DNA from: a virus
Direction: 5' to 3' (one strand)
Length of the DNA: 27,034 nt
Virus record (IMG/VR): IMGVR_UViG_3300042479_000566
Coordinates: 1 to 27,034 of that record
Position 1 is the first letter of the stretch; each line of letters begins with the position of its first letter. Of the stretch, positions 1,394 through 27,034 are shown piece after piece. The position numbers and the translations under genes were made by a program. The notes under the pieces were generated by a model that saw nothing but the letters and a program-made list of their open reading frames with translations, was not told the DNA's origin and did no database searches.

Positions 1394-2592
1394 TCTTCGA
1401 TTCTTCTCACTTGGTACTTCTCATGTGCAACGTGATCACGATAGCGATTGCCTGCACGATTCCATTGCTCGCCTTGTCCAGTCATAATATCAATCACCCG
1501 ATCAATAGTGCCGTTGTTCCAGTCTGATATCAAGCCCATGTTGTGATGTGGTTCACGCAATAGATTTTGCATCTTGTGATAGGCATCATCTATGCTCCAA
1601 GGCACGTAGAGCCTATTAGGGTCATTAGAGAATGTTTCGGGGAAACTGCGATAAGCAGGATATAACACATTACACCCAAGAGTATCGGCTTCAGAAACAG
1701 TGTTAGATACCCAGTCTTGTAAAGCACAATTGAATAGCACCCGAGTATCATTAACAAGATTATAGTAGTCATTTTTGCTTAGATTATCATAAATTTTTAA
1801 CTTGCCTTCTCGTTCGTACATTCTAGCACGTTCAAGATACTTGGGATTGTTACTGCGCAATGGACCACCAGAGAAGATGGCAAACTCGCAGGGTTCTTTG
1901 GTCATGTATCCATACATTTCAATCAAGTCCATGTAGAAGTCCGGTTGCTTCTCTTGGTCAAACCGTGCGGCAAAGCCTACACGACGTTTGCGCTCTTGGA
2001 AGGGCTTAATGTTTGTAGTACCGCCAATTCGCTCTAGTACTTCTTCTTTGCCAAATGCTAGGCCACTGATATTGTATATAGGAGCACGCCATCCAGCAAT
2101 GCGCATATGAGCAACCATCTCTTCGTTTGTGGCGAGAACTCCTGTAACGAACTCATTAACCATGTGTTCGTAGAGGCCCATCCACTTTGCCATACCCCAT
2201 ACATGTACGAAATCATCAGGATCAATGGACTGAGCAAGACAGCGCACATATACCCTGGGACGTTGATCAGCAGGAATTTGATCAAATATATATGGTAAAC
2301 TCTCAATGCCGGGTTGAAACATGTCCTCAAAGTAGATAACATCTTCACTTGTAACTTCTCCTTTGCGCATCATTTGAACCAAGTTCATCATCTGGCTCAT
2401 GCTGAAATAACTGCGACCATGTGCGTCTAGTACTTGTCCTACAGAGATTGCTTGCGAGTTATCAATGGTTGTGCCAGGAACATAAACTACATCGAGTCCA
2501 CGTCTATCAAATACACGCCGGTTCCACTCTGTGAGTTGTAGAGTGTATCTTGCTTCATACGACTCCAAACCACAATAAAATAACTTACGCAT
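1390..2592 (-). CDS. GT-B fold glycosyltransferase (group 1/GT4-like)
   Basis: The 400-residue protein has two halves. The first ~180 residues would be the acceptor domain. The second starts with RVGFAARFDQEKQPD (204-218), matching the glycosyltransferase group 1 pattern that follows the interdomain linker. Near 300-310, SEADTLGCNVL resembles the E-x7-E donor-binding region of GT4 enzymes, followed by a proline-rich loop with an SFPETFSND segment. Such enzymes transfer a sugar from a nucleotide donor to an acceptor. It overlaps galE by 4 bases downstream and the HNH gene by 8 bases upstream. With galE and the aminotransferase it forms a small sugar-modification cassette. Donor and acceptor are unknown. 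Confidence 0.8.
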   Translation of the reverse strand: MRKLFYCGLESYEARYTLQLTEWNRRVFDRRGLDVVYVPGTTIDNSQAISVGQVLDAHGRSYFSMSQMMNLVQMMRKGEVTSEDVIYFEDMFQPGIESLPYIFDQIPADQRPRVYVRCLAQSIDPDDFVHVWGMAKWMGLYEHMVNEFVTGVLATNEEMVAHMRIAGWRAPIYNISGLAFGKEEVLERIGGTTNIKPFQERKRRVGFAARFDQEKQPDFYMDLIEMYGYMTKEPCEFAIFSGGPLRSNNPKYLERARMYEREGKLKIYDNLSKNDYYNLVNDTRVLFNCALQDWVSNTVSEADTLGCNVLYPAYRSFPETFSNDPNRLYVPWSIDDAYHKMQNLLREPHHNMGLISDWNNGTIDRVIDIMTGQGEQWNRAGNRYRDHVAHEKYQVRRIEE

Positions 2593-3298
2593 TATTACAC
2601 CTTTCTAATAGTTCTGCAGGAGAGATTTCACTGCGATAACTTTTGCTTCTATTCATTTGTCCATCTAACATTTGAAGATTATGAATACTACCCATTACTT
2701 CCGGAGGCACATTATTTCTAAATCCTTCAACTATTGATAATACATGATCTAAATGATTATGTCTATCTCGTATTTGTTCAGACATATATTTTTTGTAAGA
2801 ACGATTAGAGAATCTCCAAACTGCCCGTCTATATCTTTCGTAATCTGTTTTGAGAACTGGATCTATAACACTTTTACTATTTGATAGTTTGGTAGATATG
2901 CTTTTTTCTACAATGCATTCTGGGCATAGAACATGACCGGATAGTAGTTGATTTGGCATAGTTTCAAACTTGTGTTTATGTGTATTGCATTTGAACAAAA
3001 GTTTAGTTTTGGCAGTTTTGTATTGTTCGCACACTTCAAGATGTGGGAAAAGTGTTTCAACCTCTATAACAAAATGATCATGCGTTTTATGAAAACTTTT
3101 GTTGCATTGAGGGCATCCACCTTTCCCGTTTTTCATATCGTTTGGATATTTTTCAAAGTATCCGTGTTGTTTGCATCCAATAATAACTTTGATATTGCAG
3201 TTTTTATATTCAAATTTATCAAACAGCAAATCTGGATGATATTGTTTGATTTCTGCTAACACTGTTGTTGTATCCTTGCCGTGTGTTCTTCCGCCCAT
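2585..3298 (-). CDS. HNH-type homing endonuclease with zinc-ribbon repeats
   Basis: This 237-residue protein begins with two zinc-ribbon-like units: Cys42/His45/Cys62/Cys65 (GCKQHGYF, GGCPQC) and Cys104/His107/Cys125/Cys128. These resemble the DNA-binding repeats fused to phage HNH nucleases. The C-terminal part has RHNHLDHVLSI near 179-189, then GF, VPPEVMGSIHNLQML (197-211) and NRSKS, the usual order in phage HNH endonucleases. The gene is visibly AT-richer than its neighbours and sits between the sugar cassette and a block of small conserved genes, as expected for a selfish inserted gene. It has its own TATAAATA box and an AAGGAA ribosome site just upstream. The nuclease family call is good; the target site is unknown. 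Confidence 0.8.
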   Translation of the reverse strand: MGGRTHGKDTTTVLAEIKQYHPDLLFDKFEYKNCNIKVIIGCKQHGYFEKYPNDMKNGKGGCPQCNKSFHKTHDHFVIEVETLFPHLEVCEQYKTAKTKLLFKCNTHKHKFETMPNQLLSGHVLCPECIVEKSISTKLSNSKSVIDPVLKTDYERYRRAVWRFSNRSYKKYMSEQIRDRHNHLDHVLSIVEGFRNNVPPEVMGSIHNLQMLDGQMNRSKSYRSEISPAELLERCNNA

Positions 3299-4052: not shown

Positions 4053-4588
4053 ACTGTTTTGTCCTTTGTGTATTTAGACCATGGAGTGAATTTGTTTCGA
4101 TTTTGTAGTGTGTGTAGGCTATGACACCACACACCCGGATTGGTTGCCGCAAAGTCTCGATCGTCTATTTTGAGCGTGGCGTTATATCCAAGTTGACGGA
4201 TGTAAGGAAGTTTTACAGAGATCATTGGAATAAAGTTATTGTGCTCACAAAACCCACCTTCAAGCAATCCCTCAACACACTTGACATCAATGTCTAGTGT
4301 GCATAGATGTCCTTTGTTTAAAAAATGTTGGATCATCTGTTCCCAGGGCGACCAAAACACAGAATCATTGGTTTGTATGCTGGAAGGAAAACTCTGATTG
4401 GCACCAAAGTAAATGTGTTCAATGTGCTGTGCGGCGTCTTCATGCAAAGCAAAGTCATCTAACCAATCTTGAATTTCACTGACTGGCTGTAACCCCACTA
4501 CAAACAATGTTTTCTTGCCATAGGCCGGAGTGTGTTCTACTTCTGTGCCTGTGAAAAACTTAACATTTTCGTGGCCTTCTCGATTCAT
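4049..4588 (-). CDS. Conserved phage hypothetical protein in the TGT-like operon
   Basis: This is a 179-residue protein of unknown function. The first third contains FFTGTEVEHTPAYGKKTLFVVG (split across residues 11-32) and then YFGANQSF near 80. Later segments include WSPWEQMIQHFLNKGHLCTLDID, MISVKLPYI and DRDFAATNPGVWCHSLHTL. The alternation of short hydrophobic strands and helices suggests a compact alpha/beta domain. No CX3CX2C radical SAM motif or P-loop is visible. I recall similar proteins in T4-like cyanophages, also unnamed. It overlaps the TGT-like gene upstream and the T-fold-like gene downstream by 4 bases each (ATGA), so the three are probably made in a fixed ratio and may act together. 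Confidence 0.75.
   Translation of the reverse strand: MNREGHENVKFFTGTEVEHTPAYGKKTLFVVGLQPVSEIQDWLDDFALHEDAAQHIEHIYFGANQSFPSSIQTNDSVFWSPWEQMIQHFLNKGHLCTLDIDVKCVEGLLEGGFCEHNNFIPMISVKLPYIRQLGYNATLKIDDRDFAATNPGVWCHSLHTLQNRNKFTPWSKYTKDKTV
4071..4078 (-). promoter_or_regulatory. Late-promoter-like box TCTAAATA
   Basis: Minus-strand TCTAAATAC differs from the T4 late box by one base and lies 18 bases before the ATG at 4052, with AAGGA in between. This spacing equals that of the TATAAATA box before the HNH gene. It lies inside the end of the upstream gene (4049-4588). The same 8-mer occurs inside coding regions at 6229, 6547 and 9062, so chance is possible. Confidence 0.35.
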
Positions 4589-6153
4589 TTAGATTGTTCC
4601 TGTTCAAGTTTATCCAAATTGTCCACAGACAATTCCTCTTCATCTGATTGTACACTATCTTCGGTATCTGTGTCAACAGTTTCGAACAGGCTGTTGAATT
4701 GCGTGTGTGCGTTCTTGGCCTTTTTGCCTTTGAACCCACGTGTGCCCACAATGTCCATCCAATAACGATCGTAGGATTCAATAATGGCTTCTGCTTCGGC
4801 ACGATCAGGCGTGGCAAAGATTGCTTCTACAATGTCCTCAAACTTGGTATGGTCACCGCAGGTGTCCCACATCATCCGGGGCCTATTGCCAGCATCAAAC
4901 TCACGATTGGCTCGTTGCACTGACTCTAAGTGTAACCAAACATTATGGCCCATAAGCAACGCATACGAGAAACTGTCCCAACTGGTCTTGCCTTCTTTAC
5001 CAATCTTATTTAGGTCACCCGGCTTGTAATAGCAAATATCTTTCATTTGTAAATGCCGACTGATAGGACTGTCTTCAAATGTATCAACCAATCCATCTGC
5101 CACAACGCCTTGACTAAACGGGCGTGTGTCTGCGGCATATTTCTTGTCATCCACAATAGGATTCATTCTGTAACTCCACTTGCCGTTGTGTGGCAACACA
5201 ATCTCGTGGTACACTTGTCCATTGGCTGTGGCAAGGAATGGGCTGGCACAATCAAAGGAAATAGTAAATTGTGGATTCACATACTTACGAACTGCCCTTT
5301 GAATCACGGTGAGTAACACAGCCCATTCCAACTTGCTTGTGCCCAAGAAGTGCATCCAATCATGAACGCCCGGCTGTAGCAGGTTATCATGACGCAGTGC
5401 TACTAAACGTCGTAGCACCAGGTGCACATCGCACATGTTCTGACCGCCCATTGACCATCCATTAAAGTGTGTGTCGGGGTATTTTGCAGGATCACAGTAC
5501 TCTTTCATCATGTCGTACCAACGATCTGCATCAGCATGATTGGCACCTTGCAACACGTTCAAGAACTTGGCACCACCGTTCTTGACACCTTTACGATGCT
5601 TCATAAAGTAATCGTTGTTGAACTTGGTAGCGTCAACTGCTTCTTGCAGTGTGGTAATTTGACAAGCCGCAGATGCTTTTTTGTCGTGAATAACCCAGGT
5701 TGGAATATCCAAGATCATACCATAATCAGAAACACCGTCCAACCACTTTAGCACAGCGTCACGCTTCTTCTGTGCCTTGGCACAGCCTGAGTTGGCTTTC
5801 CAGTCGCCTTCCCACAGGCCCTTGGCAATCTGGAATCCGCCTGAGTCGCCTAATATTACAGTTCCAGGTTCGCGATTACGAACCATGTCCTCTGACCAGT
5901 CCTGCTTGGTCAAATCCAGATTAGCATGACCACCGGAATACAGGCTCCACCGGTATGGAAACAGACCCGTTTGACTGTTGAGCCAATTCATCTGCTCCAT
6001 GTCCGGCATGCCCTGTGGCATACGTGCAGGCTCTATGTAAGGTCCGTTTACCGGATCACGTTGCTTGCCTATGAACGTGGCATAGAATCCTGAAATGGCA
6101 GGCAAGAACACAGCATAGTCATTCTGCTTGGCAGTTAAGTTATCTTGCGTCAT
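4585..6153 (-). CDS. tRNA-guanine transglycosylase-like enzyme (TGT/DpdA superfamily)
   Basis: The 522-residue protein carries the TGT core motifs in order: DSGGFQ at 103-108, MILDIPTW near 146-153, NVLQG at 199-203, GWSMGG at 232-237 and FDCASP at 300-305. D103 and D301 are at the positions of the general acid/base and nucleophile aspartates of bacterial TGT. Later, LMGHNVWLHLESVQ matches the helix with the zinc-ligand His. Only one Cys remains 29 residues before that His, so the family's CxCxxC zinc site is incomplete. The last ~40 residues are strongly acidic. TGT enzymes exchange guanine for a 7-deazaguanine in tRNA; the DpdA branch does this in DNA. Which of these applies cannot be decided here. 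The start overlaps the sulfotransferase-like gene by 14 bases. Confidence 0.8.
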   Translation of the reverse strand: MTQDNLTAKQNDYAVFLPAISGFYATFIGKQRDPVNGPYIEPARMPQGMPDMEQMNWLNSQTGLFPYRWSLYSGGHANLDLTKQDWSEDMVRNREPGTVILGDSGGFQIAKGLWEGDWKANSGCAKAQKKRDAVLKWLDGVSDYGMILDIPTWVIHDKKASAACQITTLQEAVDATKFNNDYFMKHRKGVKNGGAKFLNVLQGANHADADRWYDMMKEYCDPAKYPDTHFNGWSMGGQNMCDVHLVLRRLVALRHDNLLQPGVHDWMHFLGTSKLEWAVLLTVIQRAVRKYVNPQFTISFDCASPFLATANGQVYHEIVLPHNGKWSYRMNPIVDDKKYAADTRPFSQGVVADGLVDTFEDSPISRHLQMKDICYYKPGDLNKIGKEGKTSWDSFSYALLMGHNVWLHLESVQRANREFDAGNRPRMMWDTCGDHTKFEDIVEAIFATPDRAEAEAIIESYDRYWMDIVGTRGFKGKKAKNAHTQFNSLFETVDTDTEDSVQSDEEELSVDNLDKLEQEQSK

Positions 6154-17916: not shown

Positions 17917-17993
17917 TATACCGGTGAGTAGGGATTGCGGAAACGATCGTATCCGTCATCTTCTGGATATACTGGATATTCGTTTGTGTTCAT
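17916..17993 (-). CDS. Tiny 25-codon gene between the array protein and the deaminase
   Basis: A minus-strand frame from ATG 17993 to TAA 17916 encodes MNTNEYPVYPEDDGYDRFRN followed by PYSPV. Its ATG overlaps the stop of the 698-codon gene by 4 bases (ATGA), and its TAA shares one base with the deaminase ATG (TAATG). Such tight junctions on both sides are the rule in this operon and support real translation. The peptide is acidic, rich in Tyr and Pro, and has no recognisable domain. It fills the whole gap between its neighbours. Confidence 0.7.
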   Translation of the reverse strand: MNTNEYPVYPEDDGYDRFRNPYSPV

Positions 17994-20086
17994 TTTTTAG
18001 GTTGCACCGCTACAGGAACGTTTCGGTACACACGTTTTTCGGGGTCGTACACAGTCTTTAATGGGCCTGCACCGGCCAACTGTTTAAGACGTGCCATGGC
18101 CGCGTCAAACTTGTCGGCATCCATGTCGCCAACTTTTTCTTGAGATTCATTAGCAGGTGCTCTGGTGTAAGTTCCGTTTGGGTTTAGTTCCACTTTGGTT
18201 GAGCCCATGCTTCTAGATCCAACAGCCATTGACGGCGCAGTGACAACTTCGCCTTGTCCGGTTGCTTGAGCATCTGAGTTCCATTTATATTGCTTGCCCT
18301 TGTACGTTAGTATCCGAGTATCAACATCGTACTGTGCCTGAGGTTTTGCAAGATTGATTGAAGACGTTGACTGAGTTGGTGCAGTATCAGTTGCCTGTTG
18401 AGTTGCAATCGGCTTGCCTGTTAAACGATTGATGCCAGGATCATCTCCAGGCATGACTCTAGCTTGTGCTCCGCCTGCGCCCAGTGCCATTGCACCTGCC
18501 AATGCCGCGCCACCTAATTTTTCTTTCCAGCCTTCCTCTAATTCAGGTTCTTGATTGGATTCAATGTAGTCAGCCGCTGTGTCAAGATAGTCAGCAGCCA
18601 GGGTAACTTTCATCTGCACCCACTCTGGCATGTTTTCGTTGTCATCCAACAGGCCGTCAAGTCTACGGGCCGCACGTACAATGGTGTTCATTTGATCTCT
18701 AGCTTGGTCGCCTTCGTAATCGTATTCGCCAGAGTCAGCGTGGTCAACCGAGTATCCGTCGCTGTCTACATCGCCTTCTGCTAGGCCTTCGCCTAACGCA
18801 TCTATCTCTGCTTGCATTGCAGCCGCAAGTTTAGGGTTCTTTGCCTTCATTGCATCAATCTTTGCCTGCATTGCTGTTTTCACTTGTGCAGGATCACCAT
18901 TTGCTATTTTTACATTGCCGGGCGCAGTAGATGTTTGCGTAATGTTATTTGTAACGTTAGATGGATTTTGCCTTACGCCTTGTCGGACCAGTTCGGCATT
19001 CTGTGCATCTCGTTCAGCGGCAGCGGCTTGTGATTTTTGGCGGTTTGCTTGATACTCTACTTCACGGGCTGCCTCTTGTTTGTCCAACTCTTTTTGCCAT
19101 TCAGGTGTAGGTTTACCGGTAACTCCGTCATACTTAGCACCCTTACCTGTTGCAGGATCATATGGTTTATCAAGCGTAGATGGTGCCTTCGTTGTAGGTT
19201 GCTGTTGTGCAGGTTGTGTTGCGGCTGGTTGTGCGGCAGTGGCCGCCGGCCGTTGTTGTGCAGTTTGTGCGGCGGCAGCTTGGTTAGCTTGTTTAGCTTG
19301 TTTAATCTGGTCAGGTTTCATGCCTGGAAATTTAGTTAGGTCTAAGGTACCACCTTTTGCCACTGCACCGGGTGCGGCTTTGGCAGCAACTTGCGGCTTG
19401 CCAGTGTTCGGATCATATCCTTGTGGAGCGGCTGCGATTCTTGCTTGTGTAGCCGCATCAGGGACTACTGGTGCCGGAGCGGCCGGAGTAGGTGCTGCCG
19501 CCGATTGTCCTGGCTTGGTAAACATACTTTTGGCTTTGTTGACCATGTTGCCTACAAAGCCTTCGTCCATGTCATCATCTGCTACACCTTGTTGGTCAGC
19601 AGTTTTACGACGAGCAACATCGCTCAAGTGTGTGACCACGCCACGTGGATCTTTGGGCTGACCTTGCTTGTTTTTTTCGACTGGGTGCCATTCTGAGTCG
19701 TCTTTCCAACTCACAACTTTACCTTGTTTGTCCTTGACTTCTGTGTGGCCTTCTGCTACACCTTGTTGCTTATCGTTGGGGTTGGTAGTCAACATGAACT
19801 CTTTGTCTTTGTTGAACAGCTTGGCCTGCATTATACGTGCGGCTTTGTTTGCGGCTGCCTTATCTTGGAATGCATAAGGATTGCCTGATTTATCTTTGAT
19901 CAGTTTGCCATTGAGGCGAATATACCAAGTATTTGATTGTTGATCAAGGCCGTGATTCTCATCATTGGCACCACCATCTGCACGATATGCTTGTGAGTCT
20001 TTGCCAAAGCCGCTGGTGCTATTGGCAACGTCACGTTCGTATGCGTCACGTGGGTCTCTCATTTCATATAGGTCATTTAGGTTCAT
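17990..20086 (-). CDS. Large modular low-complexity virion-type protein (698 aa)
   Basis: Regions are, in order: residues 50-100 a small module (WYIRLNGKLIKDKSG...AAANKAARIM); 108-112 QGVAE; 118-165 a WKDDSEWHPVEKNKQ module; 166-170 QGVAD; 190-430 an Ala/Gln/Pro-rich linker and helical stretch with repeated YDPxTGKx units (224, 309, 319); 433-437 EGLAE; 463-510 a helical module (NMPEWVQMKVTLAADYLDTA); 524-542 a short Ala/Gly hydrophobic segment; 583-603 a beta module; and 650-698 a DMDADKFDAAMARLKQLAG tail ending in basic residues. No enzyme motif is visible. The EGLAE/QGVAE motifs recur in neighbouring genes at domain borders. I infer a virion-internal or scaffold-like polyprotein. The start shares one base with the upstream stop. 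Confidence 0.75.
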   Translation of the reverse strand: MNLNDLYEMRDPRDAYERDVANSTSGFGKDSQAYRADGGANDENHGLDQQSNTWYIRLNGKLIKDKSGNPYAFQDKAAANKAARIMQAKLFNKDKEFMLTTNPNDKQQGVAEGHTEVKDKQGKVVSWKDDSEWHPVEKNKQGQPKDPRGVVTHLSDVARRKTADQQGVADDDMDEGFVGNMVNKAKSMFTKPGQSAAAPTPAAPAPVVPDAATQARIAAAPQGYDPNTGKPQVAAKAAPGAVAKGGTLDLTKFPGMKPDQIKQAKQANQAAAAQTAQQRPAATAAQPAATQPAQQQPTTKAPSTLDKPYDPATGKGAKYDGVTGKPTPEWQKELDKQEAAREVEYQANRQKSQAAAAERDAQNAELVRQGVRQNPSNVTNNITQTSTAPGNVKIANGDPAQVKTAMQAKIDAMKAKNPKLAAAMQAEIDALGEGLAEGDVDSDGYSVDHADSGEYDYEGDQARDQMNTIVRAARRLDGLLDDNENMPEWVQMKVTLAADYLDTAADYIESNQEPELEEGWKEKLGGAALAGAMALGAGGAQARVMPGDDPGINRLTGKPIATQQATDTAPTQSTSSINLAKPQAQYDVDTRILTYKGKQYKWNSDAQATGQGEVVTAPSMAVGSRSMGSTKVELNPNGTYTRAPANESQEKVGDMDADKFDAAMARLKQLAGAGPLKTVYDPEKRVYRNVPVAVQPKK

Positions 20087-20785: not shown

Positions 20786-21226
20786 TTATGCCCTCGCGTC
20801 CTTCAAATAACTTTTCAGTTGCCACTGATACTTGCCGTGTTGGCTTTGGCGTTCTGCGGCAAAGTTTGCAATGTCTTCACGACCTTCGGCAGCGGCAGCT
20901 TCAAAAACTTGCCGGCTCATGCCAATCATGATCTGTGTATCTGCGAGTAATTCTTCCAGCATCAAACGAGCACGTGGCACTTTGGTTTGATCCGGTATCT
21001 GTGTTAGTTCTAAGAAGCGGCTGAGACTGCCGGGAGCATATTCATCTGTGGTACGAATGTATTCAGCAATGGGATCTACTGCTGAATATGAATCTTCGTA
21101 GATGTTGGAAAAGAATTCGTGTAGTTCACCAAAGTCAGGTCCTTCTACATTCCAATGAAAATAGTGTGCCTTCAAATAGTACGAAAACGTACTGGCCAAA
21201 TAGGTCTTTAGTAAATCACTTAACAT
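20786..21226 (-). CDS. dps: Dps-like ferritin-family protein
   Basis: This is a 146-residue, four-helix-type protein. HYFHWNVEGPDFGELHEFF (21-39) is the Dps signature. H24, H36, D51 and E55 align with E. coli Dps H51, H63, D78 and E82 of the inter-subunit ferroxidase site. The residue matching D67 is Ser40, so one ligand is replaced. The protein lacks the Lys-rich N-terminal tail that E. coli Dps uses for DNA binding. Dps forms a 12-subunit shell that oxidises Fe(II) and protects DNA. A clear AAGGA ribosome site precedes the ATG, which overlaps the upstream gene by 11 bases. It sits within an array of proteins with capsid-targeting-like leaders but has no such leader itself. Confidence 0.88.
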   Translation of the reverse strand: MLSDLLKTYLASTFSYYLKAHYFHWNVEGPDFGELHEFFSNIYEDSYSAVDPIAEYIRTTDEYAPGSLSRFLELTQIPDQTKVPRARLMLEELLADTQIMIGMSRQVFEAAAAEGREDIANFAAERQSQHGKYQWQLKSYLKDARA

Positions 21227-21776: not shown

Positions 21777-22484
21777 ATGACTGAACTTATCTATACCCTA
21801 ATAGTCACACACATTACTATAATCTGTGTTACATTGTATCTACATCGCGGGCAAGCACATCGCGCGGTTACATTTCACCCTGCGGTGGCACATTTTATGC
21901 GCTTTTGGTTATGGGGAACTACCGGCATGGTGACCAAACAATGGGTTAGCACTCATCGTAAGCATCATCGTTTTACTGAGCAACCAGGCGACCCACATAG
22001 CCCACATGTCTACGGTATATGGACCGTATTTTTTAAAGGTGCATTTTTATATAATCAAGCAACTAAAGACAACACAATGGTTCAAGCGTATGGAGCAGGC
22101 ACCCCAGACGATTGGATTGAACGCAATGTTTATACACCACATAGTCGTCTTGGCATCGTGCTTATGCTTATTATTGATCTATGTTTATTTGGATTATGGG
22201 GATGGTTAGTTTGGTTAGTTCAGATAGTTTGGATTCCATTATGGGCTGCTGGTGTTGTCAATGGAGTTGGGCACTGGTGGGGGTATCGTAATACTAACAC
22301 CAAAGATTTTAGTCGTAATATAGTGCCTTGGGATTTTTGGGTGGGCGGCGAGCTTTTACACAACAACCACCATGCGGACCCAGCAAGTCCTAAACTAAGT
22401 CGTAAGTGGTATGAGTTTGATATTGGATGGTTATATATTAAACTATTAAGCTATTGTGGATTGGCTACGATCCGAACTACTTAA
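21777..22484 (+). CDS. Membrane fatty-acid desaturase (acyl-CoA/ACP delta-9 type)
   Basis: The 235-residue membrane protein has the three histidine boxes of the family: HRGQAH (23-28), HRKHH (60-64) and HNNHH (195-199), plus H166 in GVGHWWGYRN. Together these bind the di-iron centre. Hydrophobic segments lie near 4-20, 125-140 and 141-163. It is shorter than the typical bacterial enzyme (~280-320), with short termini but a complete catalytic core. Family enzymes introduce a cis double bond into acyl chains at the cytoplasmic face. A phage copy could adjust membrane fluidity during infection. It is the only rightward gene in this region, with its own TATAAATC/TTAAATAC elements. The 3' end overlaps the converging endonuclease gene by 39 bases. 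Confidence 0.93.
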   Translation: MTELIYTLIVTHITIICVTLYLHRGQAHRAVTFHPAVAHFMRFWLWGTTGMVTKQWVSTHRKHHRFTEQPGDPHSPHVYGIWTVFFKGAFLYNQATKDNTMVQAYGAGTPDDWIERNVYTPHSRLGIVLMLIIDLCLFGLWGWLVWLVQIVWIPLWAAGVVNGVGHWWGYRNTNTKDFSRNIVPWDFWVGGELLHNNHHADPASPKLSRKWYEFDIGWLYIKLLSYCGLATIRTT

Positions 22485-23054
22485 TTTGCATTTATTATGG
22501 TGCCGTTGATAAAATACATTAATAGGCAAGTCTTTTTTACAGCACAGACAACTTATCCTTACAGCTTTTTTTCCAAAGTTTGGACACAAAGGTCCTTTTG
22601 TTCCAAACATAGGATTGTTTTTGCCTGCTTTCTTGGCCCGTTGAACTGTTAAGGTTTCCTCACTGTGGCGCTTTCCAAAAAATGGGTTAAGCTCACCTTT
22701 TAATTTAGCACTTACTTCTGTACGCTTTTTACCAAAGTTTGGATGATTTTTTCCAGAGCGACTTGCTTTTTCTTCAGTTGACATAATACGGCCACTTATA
22801 CCGTCTCCACCATCTGTTTTATTTCTAAGTATTCCTGTGCCCGTATCTTTGCGACCATACCATCTTATTAATCGTCGTTCAATGGCCAGAGAGCCAACTT
22901 CAGTTAATCCAGATTCGACAATAATGATTTTAGAACGATCTTTTGGAGGATGTACTTCGCCCTTGCCTTTTATCCACGCACGTTTGCCTTTTCCTTTTCC
23001 GATGTAGTACGGAGTGTTGTCTTTTCTTAGATAGGCATAAACATAGTATTCCAT
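22446..23054 (-). CDS. GIY-YIG homing endonuclease with NUMOD3 repeats
   Basis: This is a 202-residue protein. YVYAYLR (4-10) and PYYIGKG (15-21) are the GIY and YIG elements; R25 and E59 (in IERRLIRW) are the likely catalytic Arg and Glu. Four NUMOD3-type DNA-binding motifs follow: HPNFGKK (104), NPFFGKRHSEET (123), NPMFGTKG (147) and CPNFGKK (157). A Cys cluster (CLCCKK, 169-174) with a later HH and C may form a zinc finger. It is a free-standing mobile nuclease inserted between the desaturase and the array. AT-rich spacer DNA with tandem TATAAT boxes precedes it. Its end overlaps the desaturase by 39 bases. Confidence 0.92.
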   Translation of the reverse strand: MEYYVYAYLRKDNTPYYIGKGKGKRAWIKGKGEVHPPKDRSKIIIVESGLTEVGSLAIERRLIRWYGRKDTGTGILRNKTDGGDGISGRIMSTEEKASRSGKNHPNFGKKRTEVSAKLKGELNPFFGKRHSEETLTVQRAKKAGKNNPMFGTKGPLCPNFGKKAVRISCLCCKKDLPINVFYQRHHNKCKLSSSDRSQSTIA

Positions 23055-23108: not shown

Positions 23109-23297
23109 CTAACGCAGTTCTTTGATTGAGCCCACGTGCCAATCTTCGATGCGGTACTGTGCTTTGATCATTTGTCTAGCCACATGTGTGTTGGGAGCCC
23201 ATACCACTGCATCGACCCAGCCCACATATCCAGGGTTCTGAACACGCACCTTGGCAGTCCATTGTTTTGCACCTCGGATGATTTCTTTGGCTCGCAT
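23109..23297 (-). CDS. Small protein with MRAKEIIRG leader variant
   Basis: This is a 62-residue protein from ATG 23297. That start is preferred over an in-frame TTG four codons earlier because it forms a TGATG junction with the upstream stop and yields MRAKEIIRG, aligned with the MRAxEFI leaders of nearby genes. Unlike those, it lacks the IxE cleavage motif, so it may not be processed. The remainder (QWTAKVRVQNPGYVGWVDAVV...ARQMIKAQYRIEDWHVGSIKEL) alternates strands and a helix, a small alpha/beta domain. Function unknown. Confidence 0.7.
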   Translation of the reverse strand: MRAKEIIRGAKQWTAKVRVQNPGYVGWVDAVVWAPNTHVARQMIKAQYRIEDWHVGSIKELR

Positions 23298-24250
23298 CAG
23301 CAGTTCCAACGTCTACGAGCTTTGCAAATGGCCTTGTCCGGAGTCTTGGCACATGAAATATTGTGCATCTTCATTTGTCCGCGACTGCGGCTACAATAGC
23401 TCTTTCTACGCTTGCTGGCCTTGCTACCACGCTTTAGTTTGCTGGGTTTGGTAGTCACAGCAGTCTTTAGCTTTGATCCTGGATTCTCTCTGCGATAAGC
23501 ATTCACAGCCTTTTGACTCATGCCCGCAGTGCGATCTCGTTTGTTGGCCTTTTGCCAGTCTTCGTTCAGTTGCGAAGTCACAGCAAACACATACAGTTCA
23601 TCTTCGGTTAGTGATTCTAAGTCCGCCCATACTGCTTCGGCGTCTACACCATTTTGTTCAGCAATACGATCGATAATAGATTCAATAAGATCAAACTCTT
23701 CTGTCAAGCCTTCATCGGCATTGGGTTTGTCACGGAGTGGGCCGCCTGTGACCCAGGCATCGCAGGTTCTACGGCTGGCACATTTGAATTTTAAGAACTT
23801 ACAATAACCCAGCTCACCTGCATCAATAACGCCGGCTGCATCCGCAGGAGAGTCACTGTCGATGCCTTGAGCAATGCAGTCCAAGGTTTCTTCTCGTATG
23901 TCAAACGCCGCACAGTTGCCGCATAGGCTTTGTTTGGCTTCCTCTGCTGAGTCCAAGTTCCACTCATCAACTTTTTTCATCCAGAACTTGGTGTTGGGCA
24001 TGTCTGGGTTCAGCGGCCCATAGCCATAGTCATTGATGGCTTTTTGTCTGTTCTTGAGATTGAGTGTAATGTCTTGTGTAGCAGGAGGGCACTTGTTGTC
24101 AGAGTCTTCTGCTATGCTTTCAGCAGGCACACAGTTGTTTACACGTACTCCGCCCTTCATTTTAGTTTTAGGGTTGCCAATCTTTTTGCCTGTCCAGCAC
24201 TTGGGATCCAAGCGGACTTTTTCTTCTACAATGAATTCGTTAGCTCTCAT
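23297..24250 (-). CDS. Modular protein with capsid-targeting-like leader, Cys-rich module and basic tail (317 aa)
   Basis: The protein begins MRANEFIVE (1-9), the shared leader ending in I-x-E. Next come a KCWTGKK...GGVRVNNCVP module (17-42) and SIAED (45-49). A Cys-rich module has C110-x2-C113 (CGNC), C125, C150, C157 and C163, spaced like a metal-binding domain. EGLTEE (180-185) marks the next border. The last ~85 residues are strongly basic (AVTTKPSKLKRGSKASKRRK, then QARRRWNC-like ending ARRRWNC) and resemble a tail module I recall as Pfam DUF6321 in cyanophage proteins. The order suggests a packaged protein cut into pieces, with a DNA-binding tail. The ATG overlaps the upstream stop by 4 bases; its stop is fused to the next ATG (TGATG). 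Confidence 0.8.
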   Translation of the reverse strand: MRANEFIVEEKVRLDPKCWTGKKIGNPKTKMKGGVRVNNCVPAESIAEDSDNKCPPATQDITLNLKNRQKAINDYGYGPLNPDMPNTKFWMKKVDEWNLDSAEEAKQSLCGNCAAFDIREETLDCIAQGIDSDSPADAAGVIDAGELGYCKFLKFKCASRRTCDAWVTGGPLRDKPNADEGLTEEFDLIESIIDRIAEQNGVDAEAVWADLESLTEDELYVFAVTSQLNEDWQKANKRDRTAGMSQKAVNAYRRENPGSKLKTAVTTKPSKLKRGSKASKRRKSYCSRSRGQMKMHNISCAKTPDKAICKARRRWNC

Positions 24251-26112
24251 TTTTTCTTACCTCGTCGCATATTTAGTTGCCACTGTGCCATCCTGCGACG
24301 CTCGCCTGTGCTGGATTGAGCAATCTTTTCCAGTTGGCCCAAGGTGGCTTTTTTAGGAATCCCTACTCTGCGACTCAGCCCTTTGCGTCCAGGATTTTTA
24401 CCATCCGCAAAGTTTTCATCTATCTCTTGTTCCCATACATTTTGTTCAGGACGATGCTTGTCCCAAAATCCAGCACCTGCATCAGTTTGCTGACCACTGC
24501 GGCGTATTTTATAGCCTTTGCTTTTTACATAGTCATACATTGTAGCGGCAATACCCTGACCTTGATAGCGTTCTTCTACTTCTAAATCTTGCGGCATTAA
24601 GTAATCGCCTTCTTGAACAAATAATACATGTCCAAGTTCGCGGCCGCCTGGCATCATGGCCGTTATTAAAATTTCGTCATCTTCTTTTTCCAAGGAGATT
24701 TCTATTCCATTATAATGTTCCATGCCTTCCGCCACACCTTGTTCTACGCTTTCACTTTTGTATGTGGCTCCAGTGCAGACCCAAGCAGGGCCTGTGTATC
24801 CTTGAGGGAATGCCTTCAAATGCTGAATAGTTCTATGCCAACCTTCAATCAAATCATAACCGTTTGCTAATTTAGCAACAATAATTGGTTCCGCACTCAC
24901 ACCCTTTTGCTGAATCATTTGTGATTGCAGTGCGTGTCTTTCAGCATCTTTTGGAACTTGAAAAGGATTAGAACTACCACCTTCACGACTTTGAATCATA
25001 CGCTGAGTTTTTGGTGTAAAGATATCTAGTGTGATGGGAATCTTAGTCAGTGTCCATTTACAATTACCAAAGTCTTGTTGTATTTCATCTAAAAAATCTT
25101 CTAAATCTTTTTGATTTTTATTACCTTTTGCCTTGGCATATAAAAAATCTCGTTGCACATATTCAGGCCATTGTGTTCTTGGAAATTTAGACTGAACCCA
25201 GGTCCAGAGTTGGTCACGATACTCACTTAGTGAGCCTTCCGCCACCGGTTGTTTTATTCTACTTAATTCGTATATAACTTTGTTGCCAGTGTCTGCACGA
25301 AAAGCTCTGAAACCCCATGCTCTAGCATAACGCTGTACTAAACTATCATATAGTCTAGCTCTACTTTGTGCGTTTTGTCCTTGTTCAACTTCTTTACTGG
25401 CAGTAAAGGTTATTCTATTAGGAGTATACTTTTTAATAAACGTTTGTATAGCACTTAACACAGTGGCAAACACACGTTGTTGATCGCCTTCACCTGTGAC
25501 TTCTTGGCTGTTGTTTCTATAGAATTCAACACTCCATGCTTCCTCTTTTGAATCTTTACTAAATCCCTTGTTAAACATAATACTTAGAAAAGTTCCGTCA
25601 TCTAATCGTGCTATTGCATCCACATCACCAAAGTCACCCTTTTCCCATCGAAGTAGTTCATACGGTTTATCAAATGCTTCTGTCAGACCCTGTGCAATTG
25701 CTTCACGGGCCTGGCGTTCATTCTCTACTTTGAATTTTTGTAAGGCTTGATTATCATTAATTTGTCTACGGTCCAATTGTTGCCAAATTGACAAGTCAAA
25801 TTTGAGAAGTTTTCGTTCTACTGCTTGTGCAAAACTAAGTTCATTATTACCTCGGCCTTGCCAATTAGGTTTCATGCCCCACACAACTGATACAGAATTA
25901 TCGTAATCGTTGGACAGTGTAATTCTCATACGTTCGCCATAAAATACGTATGTACGTCCTTGCCAAGTAAAGTAAAGATCACCATTACTTGTTTGTCCCG
26001 TGCTCCAGCCATGCTTTTTTTGCAGAGCACTAACTGCGGCTTGATCTGCATTTTCCGCCACACCTTGCCGAGTCTGTGCAACAACTTCTGTTATAAATTC
26101 ACTAGCTCTCAT
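24247..26112 (-). CDS. Multidomain internal-protein-like polyprotein with ParB-like and GNAT domains (621 aa)
   Basis: The leader MRASEFITE (1-9) ends in the I-x-E cleavage pattern. QGVAE (16-20), QGLTE (141-145), QPVAE (288-292) and QGVAE (458-462) divide the rest into four blocks of about 120-170 residues. Block 1 has a GDLYFTWQGRTYVFYGERM beta region. Block 2 has TGEGDQQRVFATVLSAI and a TASKEV...RARLYDSLVQRYAR helix. Block 3 ends in EPIIVAKLANGYDLIEGWHR (408-427), a ParB/Srx-like strand and GWHR loop. Block 4 is a GNAT acetyltransferase with ERYQGQGIAATMYDYV (514-529). The last ~50 residues form a basic tail (GRKGLSRRVGIPKKAT, GERRRMAQWQLNMRRGKKK). The ATG lies 2 bases after the upstream stop. 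Domain calls are by pattern; virion packaging is inference. Confidence 0.8.
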   Translation of the reverse strand: MRASEFITEVVAQTRQGVAENADQAAVSALQKKHGWSTGQTSNGDLYFTWQGRTYVFYGERMRITLSNDYDNSVSVVWGMKPNWQGRGNNELSFAQAVERKLLKFDLSIWQQLDRRQINDNQALQKFKVENERQAREAIAQGLTEAFDKPYELLRWEKGDFGDVDAIARLDDGTFLSIMFNKGFSKDSKEEAWSVEFYRNNSQEVTGEGDQQRVFATVLSAIQTFIKKYTPNRITFTASKEVEQGQNAQSRARLYDSLVQRYARAWGFRAFRADTGNKVIYELSRIKQPVAEGSLSEYRDQLWTWVQSKFPRTQWPEYVQRDFLYAKAKGNKNQKDLEDFLDEIQQDFGNCKWTLTKIPITLDIFTPKTQRMIQSREGGSSNPFQVPKDAERHALQSQMIQQKGVSAEPIIVAKLANGYDLIEGWHRTIQHLKAFPQGYTGPAWVCTGATYKSESVEQGVAEGMEHYNGIEISLEKEDDEILITAMMPGGRELGHVLFVQEGDYLMPQDLEVEERYQGQGIAATMYDYVKSKGYKIRRSGQQTDAGAGFWDKHRPEQNVWEQEIDENFADGKNPGRKGLSRRVGIPKKATLGQLEKIAQSSTGERRRMAQWQLNMRRGKKK

Positions 26113-26113
26113 A

Positions 26114-27034
26114 TCAACTCACAATTGGTAGCACAGTAACATCTGCACCATGGCTGTAGCCATTGTCGGTCAACCATTGTGTGGCCACACGGTTAGCATC
26201 ACGCTGTTGATTGCCTATGCCGGAGAATCGATGCAGTTCATTGCCATCAGAATCTACAATCTTCCAAGCACCTGTAAATGTACCTGGTGTGGCTCGTTGT
26301 TGTGCTAGGTCTGCGGTGGATCCTGCAGCAGGTGTAGATGCCGTTTCTTCTGCAGGTTCCACTTGATAGTTGCCATCCCAGTTGTATTCTCTAGCCCACA
26401 CTGCGGCAAGTTCGTTGGCCTTGGCTCTGGTATTAACTGCAGGACGGAAACGATATACTTCGCGGCCTAACCCGTCAATGATTTTCCATTGTCCAGTTGG
26501 GCTTGTGGCAGCACGACCTGCGGCTATTGGCATGTCTATATCAACAATTCCAACCCCACCGACGGTACGTATGCCAAACATACGTTCAGCCTGACCTCGT
26601 TGTAGGCTATGCGGACCGTGTTCAATGTAATCATTCAGGCGAACCAATGCCTCTTCATCATTGGTAATTCCATCAGCATCCTCTACTGAGTTGCCAGTTT
26701 GTTTGTTGTAAATTTCGTAGCGAACAGTTTTTGCAGATTGTTCATATGGACGCAATGGCTTTGCAGTCATATCATTAGCTGTGGCCCAATCTGGATATTC
26801 TGCACGACCTTTTTCAATGGCTTCTTCTTTGCTGGTAGCAACAACTTCAACACTGGCTCCATATCCAGGACGACCTACACTCCACCAGTATTTTTCACCG
26901 CCTGTTGGATCTTTCTTCAACTTGCGTTCCAATTGTGCCTGCTTAACAAAACTACGCAAGGCAGCCGCAGGAATCTTGCCTGCTACGTATTCACTGAAGT
27001 ACTTGATAGTGTCAGAACCTTTGTTGTCCTGTGT
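26114..27034 (-). CDS. Partial array protein with tandem WKI/RF repeats (N-terminus beyond right edge)
   Basis: The frame is open from the right edge to the stop at 26114, giving at least 306 residues. An internal TTG at 26959 is not a convincing start because the frame continues unbroken through the last 25 codons (TQDNKGSDTIKYFSEYVAGK...). Two copies of a ~48-residue module lie at 26354-26494 and 26123-26272. They share G-x-WKI-x-D...G-x-E...RF...N...AN..A..W. A related YWWSVGRPGYGASVEVVA element occurs earlier. An Ala/Thr-rich linker separates the copies. No enzyme motif is visible. It precedes the 621-codon gene by one base and is probably part of the same virion-type operon. Confidence 0.75.
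   Translation of the reverse strand, partial: TQDNKGSDTIKYFSEYVAGKIPAAALRSFVKQAQLERKLKKDPTGGEKYWWSVGRPGYGASVEVVATSKEEAIEKGRAEYPDWATANDMTAKPLRPYEQSAKTVRYEIYNKQTGNSVEDADGITNDEEALVRLNDYIEHGPHSLQRGQAERMFGIRTVGGVGIVDIDMPIAAGRAATSPTGQWKIIDGLGREVYRFRPAVNTRAKANELAAVWAREYNWDGNYQVEPAEETASTPAAGSTADLAQQRATPGTFTGAWKIVDSDGNELHRFSGIGNQQRDANRVATQWLTDNGYSHGADVTVLPIVS
26123..26494 (-). repeat. Two tandem protein-level repeats in the partial array gene
   Basis: The units at 26354-26494 and 26123-26272 encode modules with the shared skeleton GxWKIxD, then GxE, RF, N, AN, A and W. DNA identity is low while the protein skeleton is kept, suggesting an old duplication under protein-level selection. Confidence 0.7.

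Follow-up and report, generated by a model that had tools for sequence, protein, structure and literature searches.

The viral DNA considered here, IMG/VR record IMGVR_UViG_3300042479_000566 (positions 1 to 27,034, the whole stretch of 27,034 nucleotides being called the window below), encodes on its minus strand a protein of 621 amino acids (aa) that is probably a head-targeted polyprotein: a gp21-type protease would cut it into about five cargo proteins, whose coding modules are joined at a standard DNA seam. The cutting of the protein and the packaging and injection of its modules are what we infer from the sequence and its relatives.

Linker sites and modules of the protein

The preliminary description of this gene had reported four linkers of the type [QE][GP][VL][AT]E, namely QGVAE at residues 16-20, QGLTE at 141-145, QPVAE at 288-292 and QGVAE at 458-462, and all four lie exactly there. 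When the protein was shuffled 20,000 times, the pattern was absent from 19,711 of the shuffles, occurred once in 287 and twice in 2, and never more often. Seams 1 and 4 are identical in their DNA (CAAGGTGTGGCGGAA), and QGVAE is the commonest pentapeptide (36 copies) in the open frames of at least 150 aa from the window and its domain-selected relatives. Beyond these four linkers, further in-line sites are found in FITE9 at the end of the leader, in SLSE297 and in EIDE566. The chain had been divided into four domains, with products of ~120, ~147, ~170 and ~159 residues; linker-bounded modules they are, but five in number (D1 to D4 and a basic C-terminal module; Table 1), because a separate 55-aa basic module sits behind EIDE566, and the last ~159 residues are two modules of 104 and 55 aa.

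At least two distinct effector-like domains are present in the polypeptide, DUF6934 above its cut-off (28.3 bits against 27 when D2 was scanned alone) and, weakly, ParB-like and GNAT-like domains. D2 has distant relatives in KVP40-type Vibrio phages, e.g., VH7D and nt-1, at 32-33% identity, and other members of the seam family carry Amidoligase_2, ParB_N and NTP_transf_2. With the C-terminal module as query, the phages collection gave nothing at E 0.01, PADLOC returned nothing on the 621-aa protein, and no embedded peptidase domain was matched in it, an HExxH motif being seen by eye only in the neighbouring 1354-aa gene. A role in early host takeover or counter-defence would suit acetyltransferase-like, ParB-like and small basic units.

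A hydrophobic-x-Glu rule at the module borders

We examined the module borders in independent left contexts, the window's own included, taking [ILVMF]xE ending at the module start as the criterion. The rule held in 3/3 contexts for D1, 28/29 for D2, 9/9 for D3 and 30/33 for the C-terminal module, against a background of 1.9% per position in the same frames. D4 starts raggedly: 31 of its 35 distinct contexts have a site between 8 residues ahead of the border and 3 beyond it. The linkers keep a hydrophobic P3 and a Glu at P1, while P2, P4 and P5 drift. The resemblance to prohead-protease sites (hydrophobic-x-Glu) that had been proposed for the linkers is supported by comparison, in that P3 and P1 are kept whatever the partner module; the strict L/I of T4 at P3 is another matter, and as V dominates P3 of the seams, membership of the strict T4 consensus is not claimed.

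The leaders of the relatives point the same way. Stand-alone copies of D1 begin MRAQEFIIE-NADP..., MKAQEFIIE-NNDQ... or MRATEFIVE-NADQ..., and the window has ...QGVAE-NADQ...; stand-alone copies of D2, D3 and the C-terminal module likewise carry an MRAxEFIxE-like leader with its Glu at or near the position of the linker Glu, and in stand-alone D4 the leader Glu lies at the border or a few residues away. The window protein starts with such a leader, MRASEFITE, which is about 10 residues long and closes with hydrophobic-x-Glu; its site is retained, and the seam Glu follows 11 residues further on. Among seam-bearing open reading frames (ORFs) with a defined N-terminus, 84/118 have [ILVM]xE in the first 17 residues, compared with 306/1168 of the others, and where a Shine-Dalgarno-like stretch is present the leader-like site occurs in 50 of 60 seam ORFs versus 100 of 344 others of at least 150 aa. 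The capsid-targeting sequence of T4 is placed in the first 10 residues, and gp21 cuts after L/I-X-E (PMC9026906), the T4 protein Alt being cut at ITE-6 and LTE-619 (PMC9026906, PMC5694885).

A DNA seam with frozen codons

The loci were selected by domain, not by seam, and 64 of 112 QGVAE sites were kept as unrelated on both sides. At 38 of these 64 independent sites the DNA is exactly CAAGGTGTGGCGGAA, compared with 0.27 expected from codon usage (22 of 32 were exact in an earlier, smaller set). The Ala codon is GCG in 54/64 seams versus 7.0% elsewhere, and the Val codon is GTG, again in 54/64, versus 22.4% elsewhere. A 17-mer scan of the IMG/VR viral_contigs gave at least 120 stretches, which together with the loci of the whole-protein search make up the set for the copy counts; the reversed 17-mer control pattern had 0 matches in viral_contigs. 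The QGVAE frame is the longest open one of the strand's three in 217/217 distinct exact copies and in 467/479 with up to three mismatches, and the reversed core, used as a control, gave 0 matches at 0 or 1 mismatches, 1 at 2 and 22 at 3. In this set, which the scan has enriched in exact copies, the conserved stretch is nAG-CAAGGTGTGGCGGAA-GGC with nothing beyond about 20 bp, and 199 junctions are unrelated on both sides. Among the 172 seams that have one or two mismatches, changes in the Glu codon are synonymous in 22 cases and non-synonymous in 4; the Val codon, where changed non-synonymously, gives M, L or I apart from a single Ala, and the codons for Gln, Gly and Ala are more variable.

The linkers had been said to resemble prohead-protease sites. 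This holds for P3 and P1, which are kept, whereas the near-identity of the QGVAE linkers lies largely at the DNA level, in frozen codons and break points, for which proteolysis alone does not account. The likeliest origin of the frozen DNA is that modules were joined repeatedly through the seam, recombination being the presumed cause; direct selection for a DNA-binding function could also produce such a pattern. In bacterial genome_contigs the 20-mer seam had three exact matches (a Ramlibacter, a Mesorhizobium and a Rhizobiales record; loci L266, L267 and L268, one each), in all three of which the QGVAE frame is the longest of that strand; these may be chance or phage-derived.

Relatives and module shuffling

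A search of viral_contigs with the whole protein returned 27 loci, the window's own sequence among them; in the other 26 the same domains stand alone, are reordered, or belong to chains of up to 1933 residues, mostly with the same pentapeptide-type borders. Searches with single modules found 8 loci for D1, 55 for D2 and 36 for D4, each including the window's own sequence. Seam-type junctions in IMG/VR run into the hundreds, on contigs of up to 525 kb, and 380 junctions bring together 272 left and 279 right module ends in 337 combinations. Compared pairwise, 234 junction pairs are alike on the left only, 100 on the right only and 65 on both sides, with 402 intermediate and 71,209 unlike. Pairs alike on one side only are about 0.9 identical on that side, and within two codons past the seam their identity has dropped to about 0.3; these classes were chosen as unlike on the far side and the pairs are non-independent, while the place of the drop was not chosen. 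We read these joins as probable recombination break points.

Two other routes were considered. Integron-like excision, sought as A-B-C versus A-C arrangements (empty and filled site), gave one case among 290 ORFs, itself a tandem duplication. Linkers as fossil leaders left by gene fusion were sought with a narrow pattern: of 93 distinct leader-like stretches, none was situated 40 or more residues into an open frame, so fusion of whole genes with intact leaders is unsupported.

As a separate observation, one record of 524,565 bases (loci L183 and L199) holds five QGVAE-coding matches, two pairs of which, near 176.5 kb and 524 kb, are spaced 381 bases, perhaps through duplication or an end repeat.

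Predicted structure

The predicted structures are of modest quality, with mean predicted local distance difference test (pLDDT) scores of 69.3 and 64.3; they were folded from alignments A5, without relatives of D1, and A7. Alignments A1, A2, A3, A6 and A8 were left out for misplaced fragments (in A1 of modules other than D4, in the others of D1, in A3 also pieces of D4). In the full-length model pLDDT is below 50 at residues 1-22, 288-293, 455-462 and 539-577, which comprise the leader, seams 1, 3 and 4, and E566. Seam 2 is a helix with pLDDT of about 60 in this model, whose alignment lacks D1 relatives, and in the second model, with D1 relatives, residues 134-146, which hold seam 2, fall below 50. 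Structure prediction had been suggested as a check on whether the motifs lie in exposed linkers; the answer agrees for seams 1, 3 and 4, and for seam 2 in the second model only, where it is still drawn as a helix. Low-pLDDT stretches of this kind fit exposed linkers, without being proof of them. Fold searches against the PDB with the full-length and 1-292 models gave no match at E<=0.001, and a search of BFVD gave 41 at that threshold; which module was matched is unclear, because GNAT proteins appear in the PDB lists of both models.

Protease, capsid and kind of phage

Of 12 large seam-bearing contigs, 6 have an S77 prohead protease, and these 6 also have gp23 (9 were searched for it), with a gp22-like ORF, assigned by gene order only, lying between the two. 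The 6 distinct capsid proteins have in common an L-[AKL]-E at residue 41/42. With the protease of locus L151 as query, the nearest isolates were Sinorhizobium phage Phosso (60.7%) and PA5oct-like phages (55.9%). QGVAE-coding DNA was found 0 times in Phosso, Atu_ph07 and SCTP-2 and once in PA5oct, there outside the frame of the annotated gene; the scan covered these four isolates only, and others may have seams. In 11 large virus records, chosen for seams or modules, the QGVAE-coding pattern occurs 1-6 times per record. Judging from the relatives that share its modules and seam, the phage of the window is probably T4-like and jumbo.

Proposed mechanism and its alternatives

We propose that the leader would carry the chain into the prohead core, as the T4 capsid-targeting sequence does, and that a gp21-type (S77) protease would then cut after the Glu of hydrophobic-x-Glu in exposed linkers, at E9, E20, E145, E292/E297, E462 and E566, releasing cargo proteins of about 125, 147, 165, 104 and 55 aa. 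The pieces would remain associated with the DNA and probably accompany it into the host, their injection being suggested by the precedent of the T4 internal proteins (IPs) and Alt. Modules would be exchanged between phages by recombination at the in-frame seam, and since nAG-CAAGGTGTGGCGGAA-GGC encodes QGVAE(G), the cut site would be recreated at each join. More tentatively, one sequence of 15-20 bp could serve as a standard exchange joint, at once the in-frame swap point and the codons of the prohead-protease cut site for cargo that is packaged, released and injected, with hundreds of modules circulating among T4-like jumbo phages as in-gene cassettes; a module landing between two such joints would, by the same token, automatically be packaged, released as a separate protein and injected.

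Several observations weigh against a processed polyprotein. D4 conforms to the border rule at a fixed offset in 14/27 contexts only, and P3 in the seams is mostly V where T4 uses L or I. The Glu and the P3 residue could in part be inherited with the right-hand module rather than selected. Among the 13 [ILVM]xE tripeptides of the protein some are off the borders: E282, E343, E423, E501 and E514 belong to, or adjoin, helices and strands predicted for the modules, and E561 is five residues ahead of E566, so the five interior sites would have to be protected by folding. Three low-confidence stretches of the full-length model (66-92, 206-208 and 378-391) are free of sites, and both models draw seam 2 as a helix, at low confidence. 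A recognisable leader is absent from 34/118 seam ORFs. On the side of the protease, 6/12 large seam-bearing contigs gave no S77 match; neither did the window record, itself a fragment, with control genomes giving none either, nor, for S77 or gp23, the 12 records behind the whole-protein-search loci (among them the 75-kb record that encodes the identical protein), which are fragments too and whose controls were likewise negative. The capsid cut site is only likely, because other L/I-x-E tripeptides lie nearer the protein start.

The main competitor is that the linkers are recombination seams and nothing else, the mature polyvalent chain being left uncut there. The codons are certainly frozen far beyond what a peptide would need (GCG and GTG, each in 54/64), and the break points lie at the seam edges; yet hydrophobic-x-Glu persists at borders devoid of seam-like DNA (at least 5/15 mismatches), in 21/22 cases for D2 and 21/24 for the C-terminal module, inexact seams spare the P1 Glu and P3, and linker and leader Glu are in register, all of which makes an uncut chain unlikely in our estimation. 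Far less probable still is a mobile or regulatory element of 15-20 bp, be it a nuclease target, a binding site or a self-spreading repeat, in which the QGVAE reading would be incidental. An identical sequence across unrelated modules (the 199 junctions of the scan-enriched set) and a GIY-YIG-type ORF, recognised by eye, near the gene (22446-23054) speak for it. The persistence of the QGVAE frame as the longest in exact and inexact copies alike speaks against it, as do the want of conservation beyond about 20 bp, the 0 matches of the reversed control pattern in viral_contigs, and the empty/filled-site comparison with its single case, a duplication. Nor do we give much credence to a flexible spacer peptide spread by duplication, devoid of any role in proteolysis or at the DNA level; the position of the sites in low-confidence linkers would suit it, but neither an invariant Glu with a hydrophobic residue at the second position ahead of it nor frozen rare codons would be required of a spacer. 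A head-targeted polyprotein assembled from modules at a standard seam is the reading that we prefer.

Gene neighbourhood

The coordinates of the gene, its modules and sites, and the related neighbouring genes are collected in Table 1. The 621-aa protein recurs, identical at all residues, at locus L001, where the preceding gene is complete; that 1354-aa gene has Amidoligase_2 by Pfam and, by eye, an NTase-like start and an HExxH segment. Giant chains of the seam family with Amidoligase_2 and a nucleotidyltransferase-like start are seen at L017 (start by Pfam) and at L001, 1935-5999 (start by eye). A DUF6321 tail ends the following gene (23297-24250; PF19846) and is seen by eye in L013 as well; like the NFADGK module, it is a recurrent C-terminal module.

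Table 1. Features of the 621-aa gene and of related genes in the window (residue numbers refer to the 621-aa protein).
Feature	Residues	Position	Strand	Remarks
Putative head-targeted modular polyprotein, 621-aa ORF	1-621	24247..26112	minus	ATG at 26112, stop 24247-24249
Leader MRASEFITE	1-9	26086..26112	minus	resembles capsid-targeting sequence; I-x-E end; stand-alone relatives have MRAxEFIxE directly before the same modules
Seam 1, QGVAE	16-20	26053..26067	minus	exact CAAGGTGTGGCGGAA
D1	21-140	25693..26052	minus	without convincing family match
Seam 2, QGLTE	141-145	25678..25692	minus	4/15 nt differ from CAAGGTGTGGCGGAA core
D2	146-287	25252..25677	minus	DUF6934 PF22028 / phrog_16075; weakly GNAT-like fold
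Seam 3, QPVAE	288-292	25237..25251	minus	3/15 nt differ from CAAGGTGTGGCGGAA core
Second site LSE of SLSE	295-297	25222..25230	minus	five residues after QPVAE, directly before D3
D3	298-457	24742..25221	minus	ParB/sulfiredoxin-like, weak, below Pfam cut-off
Seam 4, QGVAE	458-462	24727..24741	minus	exact CAAGGTGTGGCGGAA core plus GGC
D4	463-561	24430..24726	minus	GNAT-like acetyltransferase, weak, below Pfam cut-off
Additional site IDE (EIDE566)	564-566	24415..24423	minus	before C-terminal module
C-terminal basic module NFADGK...	567-621	24250..24414	minus	55 aa, isoelectric point 12.0
Following gene, 317 aa		23297..24250	minus	ATGA overlap at 24247-24250; leader MRANEFIVE, EGLTE junction, DUF6321 tail
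Preceding gene, 3' part, cut by window end		26114..27034	minus	full length 1354 aa in L001
698-aa ORF		17990..20086	minus	leader MNLNDLYE; QGVAEG and EGLAEG junctions

Other genes of the window were recognised by eye. The GIY-YIG-type endonuclease-like ORF (minus strand) is the second gene downstream of the polyprotein and might have a part in seam recombination; a zinc-ribbon/HNH-like ORF (2585-3298, minus) is a second possible homing endonuclease. A fatty acid desaturase-like gene (21777-22484, plus) and a Dps/ferritin-like one (20786-21226, minus) are unusual metabolic cargo for a phage, and a queuine tRNA-ribosyltransferase-like ORF (4585-6153, minus) possibly serves DNA base modification.

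Comparison with known systems

The ingredients of the proposed system have precedents, namely the capsid-targeting sequence, cutting by gp21, polyvalent proteins and core proteins cut into several fragments. Judged by titles and the abstract openings listed, the literature searched has no description of folded cargo modules linked in series through prohead-protease sites, or of a protease site encoded by a standard DNA joint, and for QGVAE no phage paper by title was among the matches listed. If the proposal is true, tailed phages possess a genuine polyprotein strategy for the cargo of their heads, and a joint that carries the processing signal is a simple answer to the problem of trading internal effectors without breaking their packaging. 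The seam would then also be a bait for finding hundreds of unknown phage proteins, already split into functional units and probably active in the first minutes of infection.

Integron gene cassettes, too, form a large set of interchangeable units that meet at a standard DNA joint; the difference is that here the units are in-frame parts of one gene.

With IPI-III and Alt of T4 the present protein shares a short leader ending in I/L-x-E and a likely destination as head cargo, S77 and gp23 being found in six large seam contigs. The T4 cargo is encoded separately and trimmed at its termini, whereas here there is one multi-module chain with a site at each join and V common at P3 (PMC9026906, PMC5694885, PMC7411985). 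The T4 core proteins gp22, gp67 and gp68 come closer in one respect, each being a single chain that gp21 cuts into several pieces, but those pieces mostly leave the head, while here they would be folded cargo (PMC9026906). The jumbo phages SPN3US and phiKZ cleave several head proteins behind a Glu that belongs to a short motif, A-X-E in SPN3US; there it is terminal propeptides that are removed, and the passages used here describe no serial modular cutting at a repeated linker (PMC5694885, PMC7411985). Polyvalent proteins are likewise multidomain chains of at least two effector-like domains, ParB-like and GNAT domains among them, and their authors liken them to polyproteins (Iyer et al. 2017, PMC5512222; PMC7824862). 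Embedded peptidase domains are invoked for them, whereas the repeated linkers described here fit a prohead protease acting in trans, with the joint itself standardised in the DNA.

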